Positions 1,996-62,695 of a stretch of DNA of 64,000 bases are shown here, piece by piece. The notes beneath the pieces were generated by a model, which made no database searches, was not told the DNA's origin, and was given only the letters and a program-made list of their open reading frames with translations. The translations under genes and the position numbers were made by a program. The stretch is taken from contig NZ_JRHH01000006.1 of NCBI RefSeq assembly GCF_000757385.1, positions 1 to 64,000 on the forward strand. Direction: 5' to 3'. The stretch comes from Flavobacterium aquatile LMG 4008 = ATCC 11947. Lineage in GTDB: Bacteria > Bacteroidota > Bacteroidia > Flavobacteriales > Flavobacteriaceae. Positions within the stretch are counted from its first letter, which is position 1; the number at the start of each line of letters is the position of its first letter.

Positions 1996-2904
1996 ATGAA
2001 AACAAAATTTTTATTTTTCGCTCTATTATTCACGGGTTTTGTGAGTTATGCGCAACAAGATGCACAATATACACAATACATGTACAATACTATTAATGTG
2101 AATCCAGCGTATGCAGGTTCACGTGGTGTGACAAGTATTTTTGGATTGCATAGAACACAATGGGTTGGATTAGATGGTGCACCAACAACTAATGCATTTT
2201 CTATAAACGCACCTTTAGGTTCTAATCTTGGTGGTGGATTATCGTTTGTTAATGATAAAATTGGTCCAACTAATGAAAACACTATCTCGGCAGATATCTC
2301 TTATACTATTCAAACCTCTGAAACGTATAAATTATCTTTTGGAGTTAAAGGAACAGCTAACTTATTCAATTTGGATGTAAGCAAATTAAATCCGGAGCAA
2401 GCTGGTGATCCATCATTGCAAAACCTAGATAACAATTTTTCTCCTAACGTTGGAGCTGGAGTTTATTTCCATTCCGATAAATTATATCTTGGAGCATCTG
2501 TACCCAATTTCTTTGAAACTAAACGCTATTCTGATAACGATTTTGTAGTCAACAAAGAACGAATGAACTTCTATTTTATTGGAGGTTATGTATTTGATGT
2601 GACTGAAAGTTTAAAATTCAAACCTGCTTTTTTAACTAAAGTAGTTGAAGGTGCACCATTGCAAGTTGACGTTTCTGGAAACTTTTTAATCAATGAAAAA
2701 TTTGTTCTTGGAGCAGCATGGAGATGGAGTGCAGCAGTGAGTTTAATGGCTGGATTTCAAGTATCAGACGGAATATATATTGGATATGGATACGATTTAG
2801 AAACTACTAGATTGAGAAGATACAATTCGGGTTCTCACGAAGTATTTTTACGTTTTGAATTGTTCAAACGTGAGAACAAAATAGTTTCACCAAGATTCTT
2901 CTAA
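1996..2904 (+). CDS. PorP/SprF family type IX secretion membrane protein
   Basis: The 302-aa protein has a signal peptide (MKTKFLFFALLFTGFVSYAQ) followed by the family hallmark QYTQYMYNTxxxNPAYAGS and an outer-membrane beta-barrel pattern ending in RFELFKRENKIVSPRFF. PorP/SprF proteins are outer-membrane partners of type B T9SS cargo; SprF of F. johnsoniae is needed for SprB to reach the surface. The gene sits directly behind an adhesin with the type B sorting domain and 13 bp ahead of an OmpA-family gene, so it is probably the dedicated partner of that adhesin. It is a paralogue of this family, not necessarily the core porP or sprF. Confidence 0.92.
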   Translation: MKTKFLFFALLFTGFVSYAQQDAQYTQYMYNTINVNPAYAGSRGVTSIFGLHRTQWVGLDGAPTTNAFSINAPLGSNLGGGLSFVNDKIGPTNENTISADISYTIQTSETYKLSFGVKGTANLFNLDVSKLNPEQAGDPSLQNLDNNFSPNVGAGVYFHSDKLYLGASVPNFFETKRYSDNDFVVNKERMNFYFIGGYVFDVTESLKFKPAFLTKVVEGAPLQVDVSGNFLINEKFVLGAAWRWSAAVSLMAGFQVSDGIYIGYGYDLETTRLRRYNSGSHEVFLRFELFKRENKIVSPRFF

Positions 2905-2917
2905 AAAAGCAACCATC

Positions 2918-4864
2918 ATGAAAAAAATTATATACACTACATTAGTTTTCATTATTTCGTTGAATAACTACGCACAAAAAACTAAAGAAGCTAAAGCCAA
3001 TAAGGAATACGAAAAATATGCCTACGTTGATGCAATAAAAACCTACGAACGTCTTTTTGAAAAAGGATACAAATCGGTTGAAATGTTGCAAAATCTAGGA
3101 AACGCTTATTATTTTAAAGCCGATTTAGAAAGTGCTGCAAAATGGTACACCGAATTATTCGCTTTAACTCAAGATCTTGATGCCGAATACTATTATCGTT
3201 ATGCACAATCATTAAAAGGTATTAAAGATTATAAAAAAGCCGATGCAATGTTGGCTAAATTCAATGAAAAAAGTGGAAATGACAGTCGTGGTAAATTAGC
3301 CGCAGAACAAAAAGATTATTTAGCTGAAATCAAAAAGAATTCGGGTCGTTATACTTTAGAAAACGCCGGAATCAATTCGGATAAATCAGATTACGGAAGT
3401 GCATTCTACAAAAACAAAGTAGTTTTTGCATCAGCAAGAGATACTGCTGGATTAGGAATCAGAAAACACGCTTGGACTGGTGAGAGTTTTACCAACTTAT
3501 ACGGTGCCGATATGGGTGATCAAGGAACGCTAAGCGATGCAAAACGTTTCGGGAAAAAACTAAATTCTAAATTTCATGAGTCTACTCCTGCTTTTACAAA
3601 AGACGGAAAAACTGCTTACTTCACTAGAAACAATTTCTTAAACGGAAAGAAAGGAAAAGATTCAGATAGAGTAACACTTTTAAAAATCTACAGAGCAACT
3701 TTAGATGGTGACGAATGGACTGAGGTTGTTGAACTTCCTTTTAATTCTAATGATTATAGTGTAGCTCATCCTACTTTAAGTGCAGATGAAAAAACATTGT
3801 ATTTTGCATCAAATATGCCTGGTACAATTGGTCAATCTGATATTTTTAAAGTGGCAATTAACAGCGATGGTACATTTGGAACACCAGTAAATTTAGGAAA
3901 AACTATTAATACTGAAGGAAGAGAAACTTTCCCATATGTATCTGCAGATAACGAATTATATTTCGCTTCTGATGGTCATCCTGGACTTGGTGGATTAGAC
4001 GTTTTTGTGTCTAAAGAAATGTCTGATGGAAATTACAAAAGTGTTCAAAATGTGGGCGAACCGCTAAACAGTTCAAAAGATGATTTTGGTTATTTGATTG
4101 ATGCAAAATCTAGAATTGGTTATGTAACTTCTAATAGAGATGGCGGACAAGGAAGCGATGATATTTACAGATTTCAAGAAACTAAAAAATTGGAATGTGA
4201 ACAATTATTAGCCGGTGTTGTAACTGACCAAGAAACTGGTGCTGCAATTGCAAATGCTAAAGTTGTTCTTGAAGATCAGAACCATAAATACATCAAAGAA
4301 TTAATCACCGATGCTGAAGGTAAATTCGATTTCGGAGCTGTGGCTTGTGGAACTAAATTTTACATCATAGCACAAAGACCAGAATACATTACAAAAGAAA
4401 CTGCAACAATTACAGCTGAAGAAACTGGGAAAACATTTGTTCCTATTGAACTTGAAAAAGAAGTTAAAAAAGTTACTGTTGGTGATGACGTTGCCAAAAC
4501 ATTCGGAATCAAAATTATTTATTTCGATTTAGACAAATCATTTATACGTCCTGATGCAGCATTCGAATTATCTAAAATTTTAGATTTAATGACTGAAAAC
4601 CCAACAATGGAAATTGATGTTCGTTCACACACTGATTGTCGTCAAACAGCTTCTTACAACATGGCGTTATCAGACAGAAGAGCCAAATCAACAGTTGCTT
4701 GGTTAGTTTCTAAAGGAATTGCAAAATCAAGATTAACAGGAAAAGGATATGGTGAATCGCAACTAGTAAACGATTGTGGATGTGAACCTACAAACAAATC
4801 TGATTGTAGTGAAGAACAACACCAAGCCAATAGAAGATCTGAATTTATTATTACAAAATTGTAA
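2918..4864 (+). CDS. OmpA family protein with TPR, PD40 repeats and carboxypeptidase regulatory-like domain
   Basis: The 648-aa protein starts with a signal peptide (MKKIIYTTLVFIISLNNYAQ). TPR-like helices follow (about residues 25-130, e.g. LQNLGNAYYFKADLESAAKW), then WD40-like PD40 beta-propeller repeats (TPAFTKDGKTAYFTRN, HPTLSADEKTLYFASN, YVSADNELYFASDG), a CarboxypepD_reg-like fold (GVVTDQETGAAIANAKVVL) and a C-terminal OmpA peptidoglycan-binding domain (IIYFDLDKSFIRPDA, DVRSHTDCR, NRRSEFIITKL). This architecture regularly accompanies PorP/SprF genes in Bacteroidota and probably anchors the secretion or adhesin complex to peptidoglycan. It is co-directional with the PorP/SprF gene (13-bp gap) and ends at a strong terminator. 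Confidence 0.92.
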   Translation: MKKIIYTTLVFIISLNNYAQKTKEAKANKEYEKYAYVDAIKTYERLFEKGYKSVEMLQNLGNAYYFKADLESAAKWYTELFALTQDLDAEYYYRYAQSLKGIKDYKKADAMLAKFNEKSGNDSRGKLAAEQKDYLAEIKKNSGRYTLENAGINSDKSDYGSAFYKNKVVFASARDTAGLGIRKHAWTGESFTNLYGADMGDQGTLSDAKRFGKKLNSKFHESTPAFTKDGKTAYFTRNNFLNGKKGKDSDRVTLLKIYRATLDGDEWTEVVELPFNSNDYSVAHPTLSADEKTLYFASNMPGTIGQSDIFKVAINSDGTFGTPVNLGKTINTEGRETFPYVSADNELYFASDGHPGLGGLDVFVSKEMSDGNYKSVQNVGEPLNSSKDDFGYLIDAKSRIGYVTSNRDGGQGSDDIYRFQETKKLECEQLLAGVVTDQETGAAIANAKVVLEDQNHKYIKELITDAEGKFDFGAVACGTKFYIIAQRPEYITKETATITAEETGKTFVPIELEKEVKKVTVGDDVAKTFGIKIIYFDLDKSFIRPDAAFELSKILDLMTENPTMEIDVRSHTDCRQTASYNMALSDRRAKSTVAWLVSKGIAKSRLTGKGYGESQLVNDCGCEPTNKSDCSEEQHQANRRSEFIITKL

Positions 4865-4891
4865 TTTTAAATACTATTTAAACCCCGGAAA

Positions 4892-4921
4892 GCACTCAAC
4901 ATTTGTTGGGTGTTTTTTTTT
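4892..4921 (+). terminator. Rho-independent terminator after OmpA-family gene
   Basis: CACTCAAC and GTTGGGTG form an 8-bp stem (one G-U pair) with a short loop, followed by nine T residues. It closes the adhesin/porP/ompA operon. Confidence 0.8.
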
Positions 4922-5010
4922 GCAAAAGTTTAAATGCAATCAATAAAAATAAAGAGTAATCTTTAACAAATTCTTCTTAACAGTCTATAAAAAAATAACG
5001 TACAAAATCG

Positions 5011-5018
5011 TACTTTTG
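5011..5018 (+). promoter_or_regulatory. Bacteroidota -7 box (TACTTTTG) of uvrA
   Basis: TACTTTTG fits the TAnnTTTG consensus and lies 17 bp before the uvrA ATG, directly after the terminator region. A clear -33 TTTG is not seen. Confidence 0.5.
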
Positions 5019-5034
5019 CGTTTTCACTAAAATT

Positions 5035-7866
5035 ATGCTAGAAAACGAAAATACTATTGAAGTAATTGGTGCTCGAGTTCACAATCTCAAAAACATTGAT
5101 ATTACAATTCCAAGAGAACAACTAGTAGTAATTACTGGTCTTTCTGGTTCTGGAAAATCATCGTTGGCATTTGATACAATTTATGCCGAAGGTCAACGTC
5201 GTTACATAGAAACTTTTTCGGCCTATGCACGTCAGTTTCTTGGCGGATTGGAACGTCCCGATGTTGATAAAATTGACGGACTTTCTCCTGTAATTGCTAT
5301 CGAACAAAAAACAACTAGCAAATCACCAAGATCTACCGTTGGAACCATCACCGAAATTTACGATTTCCTGCGTTTATTATACGCTCGCGCAGGCGAAGCT
5401 TTTAGTTACAACACTGGCGAAAAAATGGTTTCGTATTCTGATGAGCAAATCAAAGAACTAATCAAGGAAAATTTTATTGGAAAACGAATTAATGTTTTAG
5501 CTCCGATTATTCGTGCTAGAAAAGGTCATTATGCCGAATTATTTCAGCAAATTGCCAAGCAAGGTTTTGTAAAAGTTAGAGTCAACGGCGAGATAAAAGA
5601 CATAACGACCGGAATGAAACTCGATAGATACAAAACCCACGATATCGAAATTGTAATTGATAGACTGCAAGTAGAAAATGACGATGACACCGACAAACGT
5701 TTATCGGAAAGTATCAAAACCGCAATGTATCACGGCGAAGATGTAATGATGGTGATTGAACATGAAAGTGATGATGTTCGCTTTTTTAGTAGGACGTTAA
5801 TGTGTCCAACAACCGGAATTTCGTATCAAAATCCTGAACCAAATTTATTCTCATTCAATTCACCAAAAGGTGCTTGCGAACATTGTAATGGTTTAGGAAT
5901 TATAAACGAAATCAACAGAAATAAAATCATTCCAAATCCAAAATTGTCCATTAACAAAGGTGGCCTTGCTCCTCTTGGCGAATCTAAAAGTTCTTGGATG
6001 TTCAAGCAATTGGAAATAATTGGTGAAAAATATAATTTCAAATTAACCGATGCCATCGAAACCATTTCCGAAGAAGCAATGGAAATGATTTTAAACGGTG
6101 GAAACGAAAAATTCTCGGTAGTTTCAAAAACCGCTGGTGTCACCAAAGATTATAAAATCGATTTTGAAGGTATTTCTAAATTTATAAAAAACCAATTTGA
6201 TCAAAGCAATTCATCTTCAATAAAACGTTGGGCTAAAGAATTTATGGACGAAATAAATTGTCCCGAATGTCATGGTTCTCGATTGAAAAAAGAATCGCTT
6301 TTCTTTAAAATTGAAGATAAAAATATTGCCGAATTATCTGCAATGGATATTTCTGAATTAACGGAATGGTTTCAAAATTTACCTCCAAAATTATCAGAAA
6401 AACAAAAAACGATTGCCACCGAAATTCTAAAAGAAATTAACGATCGACTGAAATTTTTATTAGATGTTGGGCTAAATTATTTATCATTAAATCGAAGTTC
6501 CAAATCACTTTCGGGTGGCGAAGCACAACGTATTAGATTGGCAACCCAAATTGGTTCGCAACTGGTTGGAGTGCTTTATATTTTGGATGAACCAAGTATC
6601 GGATTGCACCAACGCGATAACGAACGATTGATTAATTCACTAAAAAATCTACGTGATATTGGCAATTCGGTTTTAGTCGTAGAACACGATAAAGACATGA
6701 TTGAATGTGCCGACTATGTTATTGATATCGGTCCGAAAGCTGGAAAATTTGGTGGTGAGATTATTAGTAAAGGAACACCAGCCGAACTGTTAAAAGAACA
6801 CACGTTAACAGCACAATATTTGAACGGCGAACTAAAAATTGAAGTCCCTAAAAAACGACGTGAAGGCAACGGAAAATCAATTAAATTATCTGGAGCAACT
6901 GGAAATAATTTAAAAAATGTAACGGTTGAATTTCCATTAGGAAAACTAATTTGCGTAACCGGAGTTTCTGGAAGTGGAAAATCGACCTTAATTAACGAAA
7001 CGCTCTACCCTATTTTAAATGCGCATATTTACAACGGAGTAAAAAAACCACAACCTTATAAAAAAATTGAAGGATTAGAACATATTGATAAAGTTATCGA
7101 TATTGATCAAAGTCCGATTGGACGAACTCCGCGTTCGAATCCTGCAACTTACACCGATGTTTTTTCAGAAGTTAGATCGTTATTCACGATGACTCCAGAA
7201 GCCATGATTCGCGGTTACAAAGCCGGAAGATTTAGTTTTAATGTTGCTGGCGGAAGATGCGAGACTTGCGAAGGTTCTGGTGTTCGAACGATAGAAATGA
7301 GTTTTTTACCTGATGTTTATGTTGAATGTGAAACTTGCATGGGAAAACGTTTTAACAGAGAAACATTAGAAATTCGATACAAAGGAAAATCAATTTCGGA
7401 TGTGTTGAACATGACGGTTGACGAAGCCGTAGATTTCTTTGAAATGATTCCGAAAATTTACCGAAAAGTCAAAACAATTCAAGATGTAGGTTTAGGATAC
7501 ATTACACTTGGTCAACAAAGTACCACACTTTCTGGTGGTGAAGCGCAACGTATAAAATTGGCAGCAGAATTATCTAAAAAAGATACTGGAAACACGTTTT
7601 ACATCATGGACGAACCTACAACTGGTTTGCACTTCGAAGACATTCGTGTGCTGATGGATGTAATTCAAAAGTTGGTAGATAAAGGAAATTCGGTTTTAAT
7701 TATCGAACATAATTTAGACGTAATAAAACTAGCCGATTACATTATTGATGTTGGAATGGAAGGCGGAAAAGGCGGCGGAGAAATTCTATGCAAAGGAACT
7801 CCAGAAGAAATTGTGAAAAATAAAAAAAGCTATACAGCGCAGTTTTTAAAGAAAGAATTAGCATAA
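5035..7866 (+). CDS. uvrA: Excinuclease ABC subunit UvrA
   Basis: UvrA is the damage-scanning ATPase of nucleotide excision repair; it loads UvrB onto lesions in the cytoplasm. The 943-aa length is right for the family. Visible are Walker A 1 (GLSGSGKSS, residues 35-43), [15 protein letters not shown], first signature [27 protein letters not shown], Walker A 2 ([10 protein letters not shown], about residue 645), the second signature [14 protein letters not shown] and the C-terminal zinc module CETCEGSGV...CETCMGKRF. The CPECHGSRL module is present too. The first zinc finger is odd: where E. coli UvrA has CPxC before LFSFN, this protein reads CPTT, so one ligand is missing although CEHC downstream is kept. 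The ATG is 17 bp behind a TAnnTTTG box. Confidence 0.98.
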
Positions 7867-55780: not shown

Positions 55781-57482
<1,702 letters not shown>

Positions 57483-57550
57483 GTGACTTACACACATTTT
57501 TTTGTTGAAAAACAGGTAAAAGTACGCGGTTGCGCTTTGTAGGAAAATGG

Positions 57551-57558
57551 TATATTTG
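57551..57558 (+). promoter_or_regulatory. -7 box (TATATTTG) ahead of the nuclease-STAND gene
   Basis: Exact TAnnTTTG match 162 bp before the ATG at 57720, implying a leader of about 155 nt. Confidence 0.4.
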
Positions 57559-57719
57559 TGAAGGATGTGATTTTAGAAATGCGTTTATTTATAAGTTATC
57601 CTTCATTGAAAAGCCAACCTTACAAATAGCAAATCTAGTTTTTTACCAACTCAAACTCCAACACTAAAAACAAAAGAGCTGTTTCTTTACAAGGCTCTAA
57701 GAAATTTCATAAGAATAAT

Positions 57720-60700
57720 ATGAGCAGACTCCAAACAATAGAAAATCGACTTAAAGAAATAAATGGAACTGTGTTTCAAGAGCTTTGCGATAGTTATTTA
57801 ATTATAAGAGATCATAATTACTTAGCTATATCTAGAACAGGAAGCCAAACAGGAAAACAAAAGACAACAAAAGGAACACCTGACACATTCTTTCAATTGC
57901 CAAACGGCAACTTTTTATATTCAGAAATTACAACTGATACGAGTACAAAAAATAAGTTAGCTAATGATATAAAAGCTTGTTTTGATCCAGATAAGACAAA
58001 AATACCTATTGATAAAATTCAAGAAATAGTACTTTGTTTCAATTGGAACATAGATCAAGAGAAAATATCTGAATTAAATGCATTAGCCCAAGGTTTTAAA
58101 GCTGATATTAGAATTCGCTATTTAATGTTGCAAGAATTAGCGTTAGAACTTCATTTAAATCACAGAGATTTAGCTCATCATTATTTAGGCTTGCCTTTAG
58201 ATACTGGTCAAATTATTTCAATAGACAACTTTATCAAAGAGTATGATAGAGCGTCAAAAGGTATTGCCACTCCTTTGAACAATACATTCTTACATAGGGA
58301 AACAGAATTAGAACAATTAAGTAATGTTATAGATAGTCACGACTTTATAATACTTACAGGAGCACCCGGAGTTGGAAAAACAAAGTTAGCAATTGAAACT
58401 ATCAACAATTATTTAGTAATCAATAAATTTTATCAAGCATATTGTGTTTCATATAAGAGTCATACTTTGCTTGAGGACTTGTATCAATATTTTGATGTAG
58501 AAAAAGACTATTTACTTTTTGTTGATGATGCAAACAGGATTGATGCATTTGAACAAATAACAGGCTTTTTTAAAGCTAATAGAAACGGTAAACTTAAAAT
58601 AATAATTACTGTAAGAGATTATGCTTTTCAAGAAATCGGAAGGAAATGTCAAGAGTTCTCAACTAAAAGAATAGACTTACAAAAGCTAAACGATGAACAA
58701 ATTATTGATATTATAAAATCTGAACCATTTGAAATTTTAAACCCTGATTATCATAAAGAAATAGTTCGAATTTCAGATGGTAATCCAAGATTAGCAATAA
58801 TGACTTCCCTTTTGGCAAAAAAGGAACAAAACTTATATGCTTTGCACGATGTTTCCGATTTATTTGAAAAGTATTTTTCAACTTTCATCAAAGATGATGG
58901 CGAATTTGAAAATCCCTTAAATATTAAATGTCTTGGAATTATTGCTTTCTTTTATACAATTCCATATAAGAATAAAGAAGTGACAGAATCAATTTTAGAA
59001 AAATTTGATATCTCATATAATGATTTTATAGATACTATAGACAAACTTGATAAGTTGGAATTGGCAGAAATTCAATTTGAACACGTAAAAGTCCCTGAAC
59101 AAAATCTTGCTATATTTTTCTTTTACAAAGCATTTATAAAAGACAACTTGCTTTCCTTTCAAGTTCTGCTAAACAACTATTTTGAAAATTATCAAAGTAG
59201 ATTTACAGACAGTATTATTCCTGCGAATAATACATTTGGCCCACAAAATGTAATGGACAAAATTAAACCTGTGTTAGTTGAACATTGGAACTTAATTCGA
59301 AACAATAATGAAAAGTCTTTTAATTTTCTCAATTCATTTTGGTTTTATTTACAAGATCAAACTTTAGAATTTACGTATCAGTACATAGAAACCTTTCCGA
59401 AAATTGAAGAAACCAAATATGACTGTTCGTATGAAAATAATCAATTCAATTATGACAAGGATAATATAATTGAATTACTAGGTAATTTTTTTCGTCTTAA
59501 TAGTAACTCTTTAAAAGATTCAATTGAATTGTTGTTCGAATATGTAACCAAAAAACCGGATAGATTGCCGGAACTTATTCATAAAATTAGAGAATTATTA
59601 ATTTTCGATAGAGATGATGAACACTACGATTTTTATAGACAAAAAGCTCTTTTCGATATATTAATATATGGTATAAACAAAGATGATGAATTACTTTCAA
59701 CATCATTTTATGAACTTTCAAAAACTTTCTTATCCTATCAATTTCAACAATTTAAAGGAGGTAGAAATAATAGTTTTATTCATTATCAATATCCAATTCC
59801 TAACAATAATACTATACATGAATTTAGAACGAAAATATGGAATACATTAGATAATAGTTTTGCATCTCGTCCTGTAATGGCTTTCAGGTTATTAAAGAAT
59901 TATTCACGAGTTCACCCAGATGTAAATAATGAAATAATGGAATTTGACATTCCATTTGTTCTCAATATTATAGACAATCATTTAAACAATGAAAATTTTG
60001 AACATTGTAAATATGTTCAAGACCAAATTAGGTGGTTCAAAAGACACGAGTTCAATTTACCCGAGTTCTCAAACTTCACTAACAAATTTGTTAATGAAAC
60101 TTACATAGCATTCTTAAAATTAGATTGGGATAGATTTAGAGATAAGGAAATATACGATTTTGATGATTTTCGAGATTATGAACGATTAAAAGAGGCAGAA
60201 ATAAGAAGCTCATTTATATTAACCAATGAGGTTGAAATCAATAACTTTTACAATACTTTTATACTATTAAGAAATTTAGCTGACAACAATTGGAACTATA
60301 ACAATGCACTAGATTTTGTTATAGATGAAAATTATTCAAGAGACTTAAAAATCGGTCATGCATTATTGGAAAAAATAATTGAAAAAGGAAATGAAGTTAA
60401 TTATGTTCCAAAAGTTGTTTTTAGAAATCAGTTGAAAGTTGCTAATACAGCTAACAATATTTGGAGTATTTTCCATATAAACCGTTTTATTGAGAATAAT
60501 TTAAATGGTATTTTAAGTAATATCAAAAAGTTTTGGTTCATTTTATCTGAAAATAATTACAGAGTTTCAAAATCATTGAAAAAATATAAACTACGCCAGC
60601 AAAAGAGTTTTAATCTTAAAGAATTATGGGAGTTATCATTTTATGATTGCATAGACGATTCATTAATCAATAAAAGCCTATCTAAATCATTAGTTGAAAC

Positions 60701-61580
60701 AATTTCAAAAATGGATAAATCTAATACAATTCATTTTGACAGACTTGAACGTTTTTTAAAAGTATCTCCAAACTTATTTCAAATAATTTTAAAAACTATT
60801 ACAGAAAAAAATGAAAGAGAAGGTACTCAAATACGAGTTTGGATGGATATTTTCAGTAAACATTTTGATAACCTTGGTGATGACATTGAGTTAATAAAAA
60901 AAGCTTACATCCAACAAAACCTTATTGAAAATCATTTTGACTACCAAGGACAAGGGATTCTAGAAATACTAAAAGTTGATAAAAATTTCTTAATAGAATT
61001 TGTTGAAAGTTTATATTCAGCAACTAACAGACATAGTCTTGGAGGCGACCATAGCGATATGAGTTATGTTTGGAATATAGAAAACATAGAAGAGACATTA
61101 ATCAATGTATTCGACTTAGTGATTGAAAAAGACTTATACTTTGGCATATCAGAACACTATTGTAATGTTTTCTTTAGAAATCCAAAAGAAGAACAGAAAA
61201 AAAGAGCGGATGATTTTATTAGACAATACGTAATTGTCAACAATCACGATTATAAAAAAATGCAAATCGTTGTTGACCTCATAAGACATTCAAGAAAAGT
61301 ATTATTTGAAGAAATATTCCTACTATTTATTTCATTAAATCAAGATAAAGAAACTTTCGGTAGATTAATGTGGAGAGGAAACGGTGGAACATATTCAGGT
61401 GATGTAATTATTGGAGATATTCAAGCTTCAGAATGGAGAAATTTATTGGAAATAGCTAAAAAATCAGCTGTAGGAATAAAGTTGATTCCAATAAAAAACT
61501 ATATAACTGAACAGGTTGAATCTTGTTTAAGGAGCGGAGATTGGGAAAGACAGCGAAAGTTTTTGAGAAAAGATTACTGA
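57720..61580 (+). CDS. Nuclease-like/STAND NTPase fusion, candidate antiphage (Avs-type) protein
   Basis: The 1286-aa cytoplasmic protein has three parts. Residues ~1-160 look like a restriction-endonuclease fold: ISRTGSQTGKQKTTKGTPD (Asp 55) and YSEITTD (Glu 69), a PD-(D/E)xK-like D...ExT pattern with Thr in place of the final Lys. Residues ~185-500 are a STAND-type P-loop NTPase: Walker A GAPGVGKT (214-221), Walker B YLLFVDDANRID, sensor IITVRDYAFQE, then a winged-helix-like part. The remaining ~750 residues are helical without clear repeats, the position of the target sensor in STAND proteins. Antiviral STAND (Avs) proteins have exactly this nuclease-NTPase-sensor order. Single gene with its own promoter and a terminator behind. 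Confidence 0.8.
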   Translation: MSRLQTIENRLKEINGTVFQELCDSYLIIRDHNYLAISRTGSQTGKQKTTKGTPDTFFQLPNGNFLYSEITTDTSTKNKLANDIKACFDPDKTKIPIDKIQEIVLCFNWNIDQEKISELNALAQGFKADIRIRYLMLQELALELHLNHRDLAHHYLGLPLDTGQIISIDNFIKEYDRASKGIATPLNNTFLHRETELEQLSNVIDSHDFIILTGAPGVGKTKLAIETINNYLVINKFYQAYCVSYKSHTLLEDLYQYFDVEKDYLLFVDDANRIDAFEQITGFFKANRNGKLKIIITVRDYAFQEIGRKCQEFSTKRIDLQKLNDEQIIDIIKSEPFEILNPDYHKEIVRISDGNPRLAIMTSLLAKKEQNLYALHDVSDLFEKYFSTFIKDDGEFENPLNIKCLGIIAFFYTIPYKNKEVTESILEKFDISYNDFIDTIDKLDKLELAEIQFEHVKVPEQNLAIFFFYKAFIKDNLLSFQVLLNNYFENYQSRFTDSIIPANNTFGPQNVMDKIKPVLVEHWNLIRNNNEKSFNFLNSFWFYLQDQTLEFTYQYIETFPKIEETKYDCSYENNQFNYDKDNIIELLGNFFRLNSNSLKDSIELLFEYVTKKPDRLPELIHKIRELLIFDRDDEHYDFYRQKALFDILIYGINKDDELLSTSFYELSKTFLSYQFQQFKGGRNNSFIHYQYPIPNNNTIHEFRTKIWNTLDNSFASRPVMAFRLLKNYSRVHPDVNNEIMEFDIPFVLNIIDNHLNNENFEHCKYVQDQIRWFKRHEFNLPEFSNFTNKFVNETYIAFLKLDWDRFRDKEIYDFDDFRDYERLKEAEIRSSFILTNEVEINNFYNTFILLRNLADNNWNYNNALDFVIDENYSRDLKIGHALLEKIIEKGNEVNYVPKVVFRNQLKVANTANNIWSIFHINRFIENNLNGILSNIKKFWFILSENNYRVSKSLKKYKLRQQKSFNLKELWELSFYDCIDDSLINKSLSKSLVETISKMDKSNTIHFDRLERFLKVSPNLFQIILKTITEKNEREGTQIRVWMDIFSKHFDNLGDDIELIKKAYIQQNLIENHFDYQGQGILEILKVDKNFLIEFVESLYSATNRHSLGGDHSDMSYVWNIENIEETLINVFDLVIEKDLYFGISEHYCNVFFRNPKEEQKKRADDFIRQYVIVNNHDYKKMQIVVDLIRHSRKVLFEEIFLLFISLNQDKETFGRLMWRGNGGTYSGDVIIGDIQASEWRNLLEIAKKSAVGIKLIPIKNYITEQVESCLRSGDWERQRKFLRKDY

Positions 61581-61646
61581 AAAGCGAACGCATAAAGTCA
61601 TACAGAATGCAACCTCAAGCTCCGCCAACCCTTCCCATAAAAACCT

Positions 61647-61677
61647 CCGCAAATGTCTCCTGACTTTGCGGTTTTTT
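61647..61677 (+). terminator. Rho-independent terminator after the STAND gene
   Basis: CCGCAAA (61647-61653) pairs with TTTGCGG (61665-61671), followed by TTTTTT. It lies 67 bp after the stop. Confidence 0.8.
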
Positions 61678-61762
61678 ATGTTTAAAAATTAATTCTTAAA
61701 AAAAAGATGGCACAAATTCAAACTTTAAAAAGCATTCTAAATGAACTTTTTTGCTATCTGAG

Positions 61763-61972
61763 TTTTCAGAGAGCAACTTTTGGCTGTCAGATAGCAATTT
61801 TGGGTTGTCAGATAACAACTTAGGGTTGTCAGATAGCAATTTTGGATTGTCAGATAGCAACTTTAGGTTGTTAAATAACAATTTTAGGTTGCCAAATAAC
61901 AATTTTAGGCTATCAAATGACAATTTTAGGTTGCTAAATAACAATTTTGAGTTGTCAGATAACAATTTTGTA
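61763..61972. repeat. 21-bp minisatellite, about ten copies
   Basis: Ten contiguous units of 21 bp, consensus TTGTCAGATAGCAATTTTGG plus one base, run from 61763 to 61972; the unit at 61784 and the next three are closest to consensus. As 21 is a multiple of 3, both strands stay open (7-residue repeat LSDSNFG or KLLSDNP), but neither has an ATG or ribosome-binding site, so I treat it as non-coding. The gap 61581-62232 holds the terminator above, this array, and a further ~250 bp in which only a small palindrome (ACGTA-AAAC-TACGT, 62067-62080) is seen. Confidence 0.85.
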
Positions 61973-62232
61973 AATTAGGTGATAAATTCTGGAGAAAATT
62001 AAACTAACACAATTAATTTCAAAACAATTCCATCCTCCAAAAATCAAAAAATAATTTACAAAAACCACGTAAAACTACGTACACTATTGTTAGTATTAAT
62101 AGGTACATTTGATAATTGATATACTAAGTTTTTTAACTAGTTATTAAACAGGATTTACCATATTGAAAAGGCAAACAACTGTAAACCAAATCAGATTACC
62201 TGAATGTCATTTAATTTCTAAATTCGCAACTT

Positions 62233-62622
62233 ATGGGTACTACTGCTACATTAGAACAATTAAAGCTAGCTCAGAAAGAACTGCTGCTTCATCATGAAGA
62301 GTTGGAAAAATGTTCGCACGAATTAAGAATAGCCGAAAATAAACTGAAAATCGGTGAAGAGGAAAAGAAGGAACACATCAGACAGTTGAACAGCGATTTG
62401 GAGAAAATGATGTTTATTGTTTGTCACAAGGTTCGGAAAAAGGTTGCCAATATTTTAGGGATTTCTACTATACTGCAAACCAATGAAAATCTTGAAATTA
62501 ACGATTGGAAGGAAATGCTTGATATCATTATAAAATCAGCCCAATCACTGAATACTGCAACAGAAGAATTATCCAAATTTATACATATCAATAGAGTTGA
62601 CATTGAGGAAACGCAAGATTAA
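62233..62622 (+). CDS. Histidine-kinase dimerisation-like protein without ATPase domain
   Basis: The 129-aa protein starts with a coiled coil (TLEQLKLAQKELLLHHEELE, EEEKKEHIRQLNSDLEKM) and continues FIVCHKVRKKVANILGIST, which matches the HisKA dimerisation box of PAS-type kinases (usually SHDLRxPLxxI) with His 65 kept but the Pro replaced. It ends after the second DHp helix; there is no HATPase part and no frame continues it. It could be a phosphotransfer or docking protein, or a kinase relic. The leader contains the ACGTA/TACGT palindrome at 62067-62080. Confidence 0.75.
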   Translation: MGTTATLEQLKLAQKELLLHHEELEKCSHELRIAENKLKIGEEEKKEHIRQLNSDLEKMMFIVCHKVRKKVANILGISTILQTNENLEINDWKEMLDIIIKSAQSLNTATEELSKFIHINRVDIEETQD

Positions 62623-62695
62623 TTTTTGAGATTTACTCAAAAACCACTAACAATACTTTAACGCTTGGTTAACAGAATATATAGTTTCATATAAA

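Follow-up and report, generated by a model that had tools for sequence, protein, structure and literature searches.

A candidate nuclease-STAND antiphage sensor of the Avs plan on an inserted segment in Flavobacterium aquatile

Background

What is the function of the long gene at positions 57720-61580 (+ strand) of a 64,000-nucleotide stretch of the Flavobacterium aquatile LMG 4008 genome (contig NZ_JRHH01000006.1; this whole stretch is called the window below)? An initial annotation, made from the letters of the sequence alone, proposed that it encodes a nuclease-STAND protein built on the plan of the Avs proteins and serving antiphage defence. Our analysis supports this annotation on both the plan and the likely function. 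We think it quite probable, by analogy with the Avs proteins, that the product is a single-protein antiphage sensor of the Avs plan (that is, a bacterial NLR-like protein) with a nuclease variant of its own, and we are equally confident that it defends its host against phage (or mobile elements) by means of a nuclease. The domain order, residue conservation, purifying selection, insertion at the locus, horizontal spread and the defence or mobile neighbourhoods of the homologues were computed here.

Domain architecture and conservation

The gene is a single unbroken open reading frame (ORF) of 1286 amino acids, starting with ATG. Three regions follow one another on the + strand: an N-terminal domain of predicted PD-(D/E)xK type (residues 1-178, 57720-58253), a STAND NTPase with the helical stretch that follows (residues about 185-490, 58272-59189) and a C-terminal helical solenoid, the presumed sensor (residues about 491-1286, 59190-61577). 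Only the middle of the protein is recognised by Pfam. There, nSTAND3 (PF20720) matches residues 197-326 with an E of 1.8e-10 and 41.2 bits against a cut-off of 27.2, and NB-ARC is likewise above its Pfam cut-off. The Walker A motif, GAPGVGKT, lies where it had been described (residues 214-221), and an Asp pair is found at residues 269-270. With the gathering cut-off passed and both the Walker A Lys and the acidic pair present, the protein belongs to the STAND NTPases and, among these, to nSTAND3. PADLOC gave three weak matches over the P-loop, and NCBIfam gave four matches that are all far under its cut-offs.

Conservation was read from an alignment of 30 sequences (the window's own and 29 homologues), 29 of which hold the N-terminal domain. 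In the STAND part, residues K220, D269, D270, R299, N355 and R357 are invariant in all 30.

The long helical C-terminus of the initial annotation appears in an AlphaFold2 model of residues 381-1286 (mean predicted local distance difference test, pLDDT, of 71) as a predicted helical solenoid. Structurally, it comes closest to proteins of HEAT type and to helical proteins like them; the Z of 11.3 for CAND2 is at a level that falls within the tool's stated range for helical repeats. Sequence alignment also reveals a 41-residue in-frame insertion after W915 (60465-60587), which, among the 25 sequences reaching that place, is common only to the homologue from F. notoginsengisoli.

Purifying selection acts on all three regions. 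In four pairs of sequences, the ratio of nonsynonymous to synonymous substitution rates (dN/dS) ranged from 0.04 to 0.14 for the nuclease part, from 0.06 to 0.09 for the STAND part and from 0.09 to 0.23 for the C-terminus. Against the most distant of the groups compared, identity per block is 24-40% for residues 1-480 and falls to 7-28% after them. An immune receptor would be expected to show such a combination, in which effector and switch are conserved and the sensor is freer.

The G+C content of the gene is 27.7%, against 32.2% for the window, and the own genome, when searched, yielded no further copy. In two homologues the gene is divided between two ORFs, in one (L077, 5277-9069) of 630 and 644 amino acids with a 29-base overlap and in the other (L079, 7580-11238) of 349 and 872 amino acids with a 4-base overlap; these are either frameshifts or two-protein versions.

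The nuclease-like N-terminus

Is the N-terminal domain a nuclease? The resemblance to PD-(D/E)xK enzymes that was first suggested is borne out by AlphaFold2, in that the predicted fold is nuclease-like and not unrelated to nucleases. The model of residues 1-500 has a mean pLDDT of 76 and a predicted template modelling (TM) score of 0.51. According to DSSP, it begins with two helices, followed by strands 36-39, 56-59 and 65-71, helix 77-87, strand 100-107 and a further helix-strand pair; the predicted core order is alpha-beta-beta-beta-alpha-beta, as in the PD-(D/E)xK fold. The motifs are GTPD (residues 52-55) and E69-I-T-T72. In the model, D55 (codon 57882-57884) lies just before strand 56-59, E69 (57924-57926) within strand 65-71 and K79 (57954-57956) within helix 77-87.

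Among the 29 N-terminal domains, G41, G52, T53, P54, D55, K79, D83 and C87 never vary; G45, K48, E69 and T72 vary once each and K46 three times. As regards membership in the PD-(D/E)xK superfamily, the acidic pair is present (D55 in 29/29, E69 in 28/29), but the Lys two residues after the Glu is not. That position, T71 here, is Thr in 25 of the 29 sequences, Ser in three and Gly in one, so that there is no canonical ExK Lys. Because Thr or Ser occupies it in 28 of the 29, the missing Lys appears from the alignment to be a trait of the family and not decay. Thr had been taken to replace the usual Lys; the Thr is there, but the Lys has probably been displaced rather than lost, with K79 as the foremost candidate for the catalytic residue. 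In one homologue, on a phage contig (L081, 8001-11726), M replaces the Glu, yet the frame is unbroken over about 1242 codons.

Displaced lysines are a known kind of exception within the superfamily, judging from excerpts of the literature. In the excerpted part of PMC4909276, the Lys comes from the helix after the Glu strand in the Hantaan (K124) and influenza (K134) enzymes, Lassa K115 is a putative catalytic Lys, and the La Crosse enzyme has its Lys on a strand. This raises the question of whether the domain, with its PD...ExT...K layout, cuts RNA as the viral cap-snatching endonucleases do and stops growth by destroying transcripts. The invariant K79, placed in the helix after the Glu strand as in the Hantaan and influenza enzymes, would fit such an activity. 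In a Pfam scan of the N-termini of 15 members, L_protein_N (E 0.0048) and capSnatchArena (E 0.14) were matched by one member each. These matches are at chance level, because plainly unrelated families match equally strongly in the same table (e.g. PRESAN, E 0.0043 in 4 members). Displaced lysines occur in DNA nucleases too, which also counts against an RNA-cutting domain. Moreover, the La Crosse Lys is placed differently, and Avs1-4 cut DNA according to a passage of PMC12931631. We therefore regard RNA as a rather unlikely target.

Could the domain instead have lost catalysis altogether, leaving a STAND signalling or regulatory protein whose N-terminus only binds nucleic acid? The Thr in place of the ExK Lys, with Thr or Ser in 28/29, and the one homologue that also lacks the Glu would agree with this. 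We consider it improbable, since D55 and K79 (29/29) and E69 (28/29) have persisted over deep divergence and the nuclease domain is under purifying selection (dN/dS 0.04-0.14). The invariance of K79 offers a simple and decisive mutational test of a displaced catalytic Lys in a cellular STAND nuclease.

Structure and profile comparisons

How far does the similarity to Avs proteins go? With Foldseek, the model of residues 1-500 retrieved, from the solved structures, two chains of Avs4 at ranks 1 and 2 (8dgf, E 3.6e-11 and 6.0e-11), Avs3 at rank 3, the plant NLR NRC4 at rank 4 and EfAvs5 at rank 5, in keeping with the Avs plan proposed at the outset. With VIA-align, EfAvs5 scored the highest Z, 14.5 (root-mean-square deviation, rmsd, 7.6; 283 residues aligned) over the STAND part (160-495). 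Avs4 scored 13.6 (413 residues aligned, rmsd 19.8), with residues 3-498 of the model laid over 2-504 of Avs4, that is, over both domains. The STAND match in VIA-align is not specific, because an archaeal ATPase tied with Avs4 at Z 13.6. Among the 50 VIA-align rows listed, Avs4 is the sole STAND protein that starts in the nuclease part and the sole row spanning 3-498. No non-Avs nuclease is among these 50 rows, which proves nothing.

When solved structures were searched by sequence, the whole protein found no match at E up to 1. A profile of 500 residues retrieved 53 sequences (best E 0.016), nearly all of them P-loop proteins, NB-ARC included, and a profile of the N-terminus gave 3 chance matches. 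In BFVD, the 50 rows listed are mostly clamp-loader and other AAA-type ATPases, and the fifth row holds a phage protein whose name refers to an NLR family (TM score by query 0.37).

We also compared the three parts with seven large proteins using hhalign. For the STAND part the probabilities were 97.3, 93.2, 91.3, 66.7, 43.3, 9.9 and 0.4, and the first of these, with an E of 2.2e-11, belongs to the Avs4-like protein of locus L108. The nuclease part and the C-terminus reached 0.8 or less against the same seven. The N-terminus reached 0.4 or less against L110, L111 and L112, whose starts match the start of the Avs4 model. The comparison with Avs profiles that had been called for thus gave a divided answer: the STAND part is homologous to that of an Avs4-like protein, but the curated model of Avs4 fails to pick out the window protein. 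The Avs4-like protein of L108 itself is under the cut-off of that model, at 672.7 bits. By eye, its N-terminus (L108, 606-5471) resembles a trypsin-type protease in place of a nuclease.

Membership in the two nearest Avs families was tried and rejected. For Avs4, NF041815 (cut-off 1500 bits) is not among the NCBIfam matches of the protein at E up to 1. In a genome scan, 0/296 exceeded this cut-off and two homologues matched the model in the STAND part alone (5e-9 and 5e-6); in the own genome, for which 2 of 15 candidates were scored, the match was on another contig. For Avs5, the SIR2 effector is absent: there is no SIR2 match in Pfam, and the predicted topology is that of PD-(D/E)xK with D55 and E69. 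The effector and the sensor, as far as tested, seem from their sequences to lie outside the known Avs families.

Distribution and horizontal transfer

Homologues are scattered. In the genus Flavobacterium, 16 of 299 genomes match at E 0.001 (own genome included), 14 of them strongly; in the family, the count is 8 of 299 (6 strong), and in the phylum, where the N-terminal profile was used, 7 of 395. Weak rows, namely G173 and G157 in the genus and G777 and G939 in the family, were kept out of the strong counts, and the counts may be somewhat low since the searches score the best few candidates per genome. The gene is therefore not a core gene in Flavobacteria; core status would have spoken against the initial annotation.

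The loci that could be named come from Algoriphagus, F. notoginsengisoli, a Flavobacteriaceae metagenome-assembled genome (MAG), a Gracilibacteria MAG, Sphingobacterium, Myroides and the cyanobacterium Waterburya. The Waterburya copy is a partial gene at a contig end, and this one contig is all the cyanobacterial evidence. The Gracilibacteria MAG copy (L005, 2-3211) also stands at a contig end, on a contig that by eye has ribosomal-protein-like genes; it could reflect transfer or misassembly.

Among plasmids, 15 records match. Thirteen are from Leptospira, with at least 95% query coverage and about 40-42% identity, and the other two reach coverages of 25% and 14%, within the STAND part and beyond it. 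No homologue was found among phage records, nor by a single-sequence scan of viral contigs, but profile scans of viral contigs found four loci in three contigs, full-length in L080 and L081 and partial in the third.

The copies from Algoriphagus, Sphingobacterium and a MAG share 95-96% of their protein and 94.6-95.9% of their nucleotide sequence. Algoriphagus (Cytophagales) and Sphingobacterium (Sphingobacteriales) belong to different orders, and the near-identity of their copies (94.6% at the nucleotide level) therefore points to recent transfer. The Leptospira and cyanobacterial copies fall inside the Bacteroidota ones when a tree is built from residues 1-379; the support for their pairing is 0.77.

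Insertion at the locus

The gene sits on an inserted segment of about 5.2 kb (57436-62655), delimited by an empty site in 10 relatives and by BLAST against the closest relative examined. The ABC-F gene and the thioredoxin-like gene, with protein alignment ends taken as the limits, are 5323 bp apart here vs 160-279 bp in those 10. Twenty-two relatives were examined, of which 12 were uninformative at the junction, the second gene not being found on the stretch. In the closest one ABC-F is 95% identical, clear homology ends at 57417 and restarts at 62655, and a weak stretch (74% over 53 bp) extends to 57474. The left end of the insert is thus between 57417 and 57474 and the right end near 62655.

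An ordinary flavobacterial core gene with a housekeeping role might be suspected from the chromosomal position among genes of ordinary metabolism. This can be ruled out for practical purposes: the distribution is sporadic, with no match in 283 of the 299 genus genomes at E 0.001, and the site is empty in 10 relatives.

The insert contains the gene, an array of a 21-bp repeat and an ORF of 129 amino acids (62233-62622, + strand) without a Pfam match. The array (61762-61970) has 10 copies of a unit that belongs to a genome-dispersed family. Upstream of the gene, at 57440-57485, there are 2.2 copies of a different 21-bp tandem repeat, for which no other match was found in the genome allowing up to 2 mismatches; it is uncertain whether it lies inside the insert, and its place may be on the left end or beyond it. 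The two were considered as marks of the insertion and rejected, as they share the period of 21 bp but not the sequence, and the one downstream occurs dispersed in the genome. No target duplication or inverted ends were seen at the junctions in the BLAST against the closest relative, no formal test being made. Of the picture of an isolated gene with flanking repeats in a defence-island insertion, the insertion is therefore real, but the repeats are unpaired and Pfam revealed no defence gene next to it. Eight of the ten neighbouring proteins match ordinary Pfam families and two match none. By eye, a sequence near 57529-57558 resembles the Bacteroidota promoter consensus.

The unit of the array at 61762-61970 has a TTGT-N6-ACAA dyad and occurs at six places in the genome in all, the others being L158 4303-4504, L159 4561-4768, L160 4354-4557, L161 4483-4613 and L162 4426-4641. 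At four of the six places, it lies 38-40 bp upstream of a small gene that by eye resembles a helix-turn-helix regulator; the window array has no such adjoining gene. Three copies of the regulator-like protein are 97-100% identical and one is 63% identical, and the best match among 120 other genus genomes has 34% identity. Repeat and regulator together give the impression of a regulator, accompanied by an operator-like array, that has multiplied recently.

Genomic neighbourhoods of the homologues

Do the homologues lie near defence genes? Some do. The initial annotation had advised looking for defence genes beside homologues, and PADLOC was run on ten neighbours one by one (E up to 1e-20). Type III methylase and restriction subunits adjoin the homologue in L004, and a Type III restriction subunit is beside it in L061, whose methylase came up in the broader count described next; in L007 a Type III methylase is about 6 kb away. 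Gabija GajB and GajA are found by the homologue in L064, and AbiEi and AbiEii in L067.

For a broader count we took 14 neighbourhoods, with a stretch 100 kb away in the same 14 genomes as control; five neighbourhoods were omitted because the contig was too short for a control, and one of these five duplicated L003. With E limited to 1e-10, 236 PADLOC models were matched among 121 neighbours vs 33 among 142 controls, figures that count redundant models and not proteins. The control matches among the 25 rows listed are mostly helicase- or ATPase-type models, which we assume housekeeping proteins also match. In sporadic distribution, transfer and defence neighbours (those of homologues, not of the window copy), the family resembles antiphage systems in general.

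In L068 the gene adjoining the homologue (2302-6555, 1418 amino acids) encodes a second, different STAND protein, unnamed by Pfam (E up to 1e-4) and by PADLOC (E up to 1e-20). We seem to recognise a Cap4-like motif in it, an assumption of ours that no family match backs; only its STAND part is supported (hhalign 93.2).

Among the other neighbourhoods, several carry phage or mobile-element genes. The L080 phage contig has terminase, portal and capsid genes, and L081 has terminase and portal; L070 has TraG and a phage integrase, L006 a phage integrase and L076 HipA (all by Pfam). Perhaps, then, the gene serves conflicts between elements, a prophage, conjugative element or plasmid excluding its rivals, with the chromosomal copy as leftover cargo. 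The full-length homologues in two phage contigs with packaging genes, those in a TraG-type element and near a phage-type integrase, and the 13 Leptospira plasmid records all speak for this. However, several copies adjoin restriction-modification, Gabija or AbiE genes, in islands that may or may not be mobile, and we treat the proposal as a possible but not a favoured one. It differs from host defence in the beneficiary only; the biochemical mechanism would be the same.

Proposed mechanism

Several results weigh against an Avs-plan nuclease sensor and have to be set beside the evidence above. Seven unrelated rows of NSF/Sec18 type in VIA-align likewise begin within residues 3-20 (their alignments stop near 380), which makes the Avs4 match weak evidence where the nuclease part is concerned; that part also fits loosely, with an rmsd of 19.8 over both domains. 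The model is poor (pLDDT under 50) in loop 41-52, which precedes D55 and adjoins the active site, one homologue (L081) is without the Glu, and the N-terminal domain has no convincing Pfam match and no NCBIfam family that names it. Neither PADLOC nor NCBIfam matched an Avs model at E up to 1. On the sensor side, no Avs protein, Avs4 included, is among the C-terminal matches listed for a weak model (mean pLDDT 71), and a freer C-terminus would be expected equally of a looser solenoid. As to neighbours, 0/10 neighbourhood proteins of the window copy match a Pfam defence family (with Pfam only, PADLOC not being applied), and 2 of the 10 itemised neighbours of homologues (L068, 1418 amino acids; L077, 311 amino acids) have no PADLOC match at 1e-20, in an itemising that covered a minority of the neighbourhoods.

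With these points considered, we still prefer the antiphage sensor of the Avs plan, and we propose that it would work as follows. At rest, the STAND NTPase would be held off. The C-terminal solenoid would bind a component of the invader, whereupon the STAND module would oligomerise and bring the N-terminal PD-(D/E)xK-type domains together. These might then cut nucleic acid; the likeliest target would be double-stranded DNA, that of the phage as well as that of the host. The metal ions would be bound by Asp55 and Glu69, and the part of the ExK Lys would fall to Lys79, located in the helix that comes next. Infection would be halted, probably at the cost of the cell. We infer sensing, oligomerisation, cutting and cell death from the Avs proteins, whose behaviour is taken from the excerpted text of PMC12931631 and PMC12724215.

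If the protein works in this way, it would add an effector and a sensor to the bacterial NLR-like repertoire. With its conserved switch and fast-diverging sensor, it is also well suited to studying which phage components are read by bacterial NLR-like proteins. Tentatively, one may go further and see in the family a separate NLR-like lineage, spread over Bacteroidota, Leptospira, a cyanobacterium and phages, that joins nSTAND3 to an undescribed nuclease family with a displaced Lys (PD...ExT...K), possibly acting on RNA, and to a HEAT-like sensor of a phage component unlike the sensors of Avs1-5; we are doubtful of this as a whole.

Comparison with known systems

A search of the open-access literature produced no description that we recognised as this family, which is not proof of its being unpublished; nSTAND3 is mentioned there in two papers, one on a mosquito virus. 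Passages of two papers come near the family: a new clade of REases is reported in NTPase-centred conflict systems (PMC7159879), and of 31 newly validated systems 13 have PD-(D/E)xK and 7 have P-loop NTPase domains (PMC13092281). Overlap of the window family with that clade or with those systems is possible.

Nuclease-STAND-repeat proteins on mobile elements are already known as a kind. In a passage of PMC9122126 they occur, with Mrr_cat or BpuSI_N effectors, in hotspots of P4-like satellites. Set beside them by description and not by sequences, the window family has the same general plan and also lies on mobile elements; their effectors are of named families, whereas the window protein's convincingly matches none. 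With the cap-snatching endonucleases of segmented negative-strand RNA viruses, some of which have the Lys in the next helix in the excerpts consulted, the likeness is in the motif layout alone.

Avs5 (9jap, 9nc9) is like the window protein in its STAND class. The window protein matches nSTAND3 (PF20720), which Avs5 is also predicted to hold (PMC12931631, as excerpted). Unlike it, Avs5 has a SIR2 effector in place of the PD-(D/E)xK-type domain.

Avs4 (AVAST type 4; 8dgf, NF041815) differs in length, its model having 1579 positions vs 1286 amino acids here, and neither the N- nor the C-terminus aligns by sequence. Of the three N-termini that match the start of the Avs4 model, two have PDAGxE...QAK, where the window protein has GTPD...ExTT...K. 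Avs4 and the window protein carry nuclease, STAND module and helical sensor in the same order in one protein, and the STAND module of the window protein is homologous to that of an Avs4-like protein.

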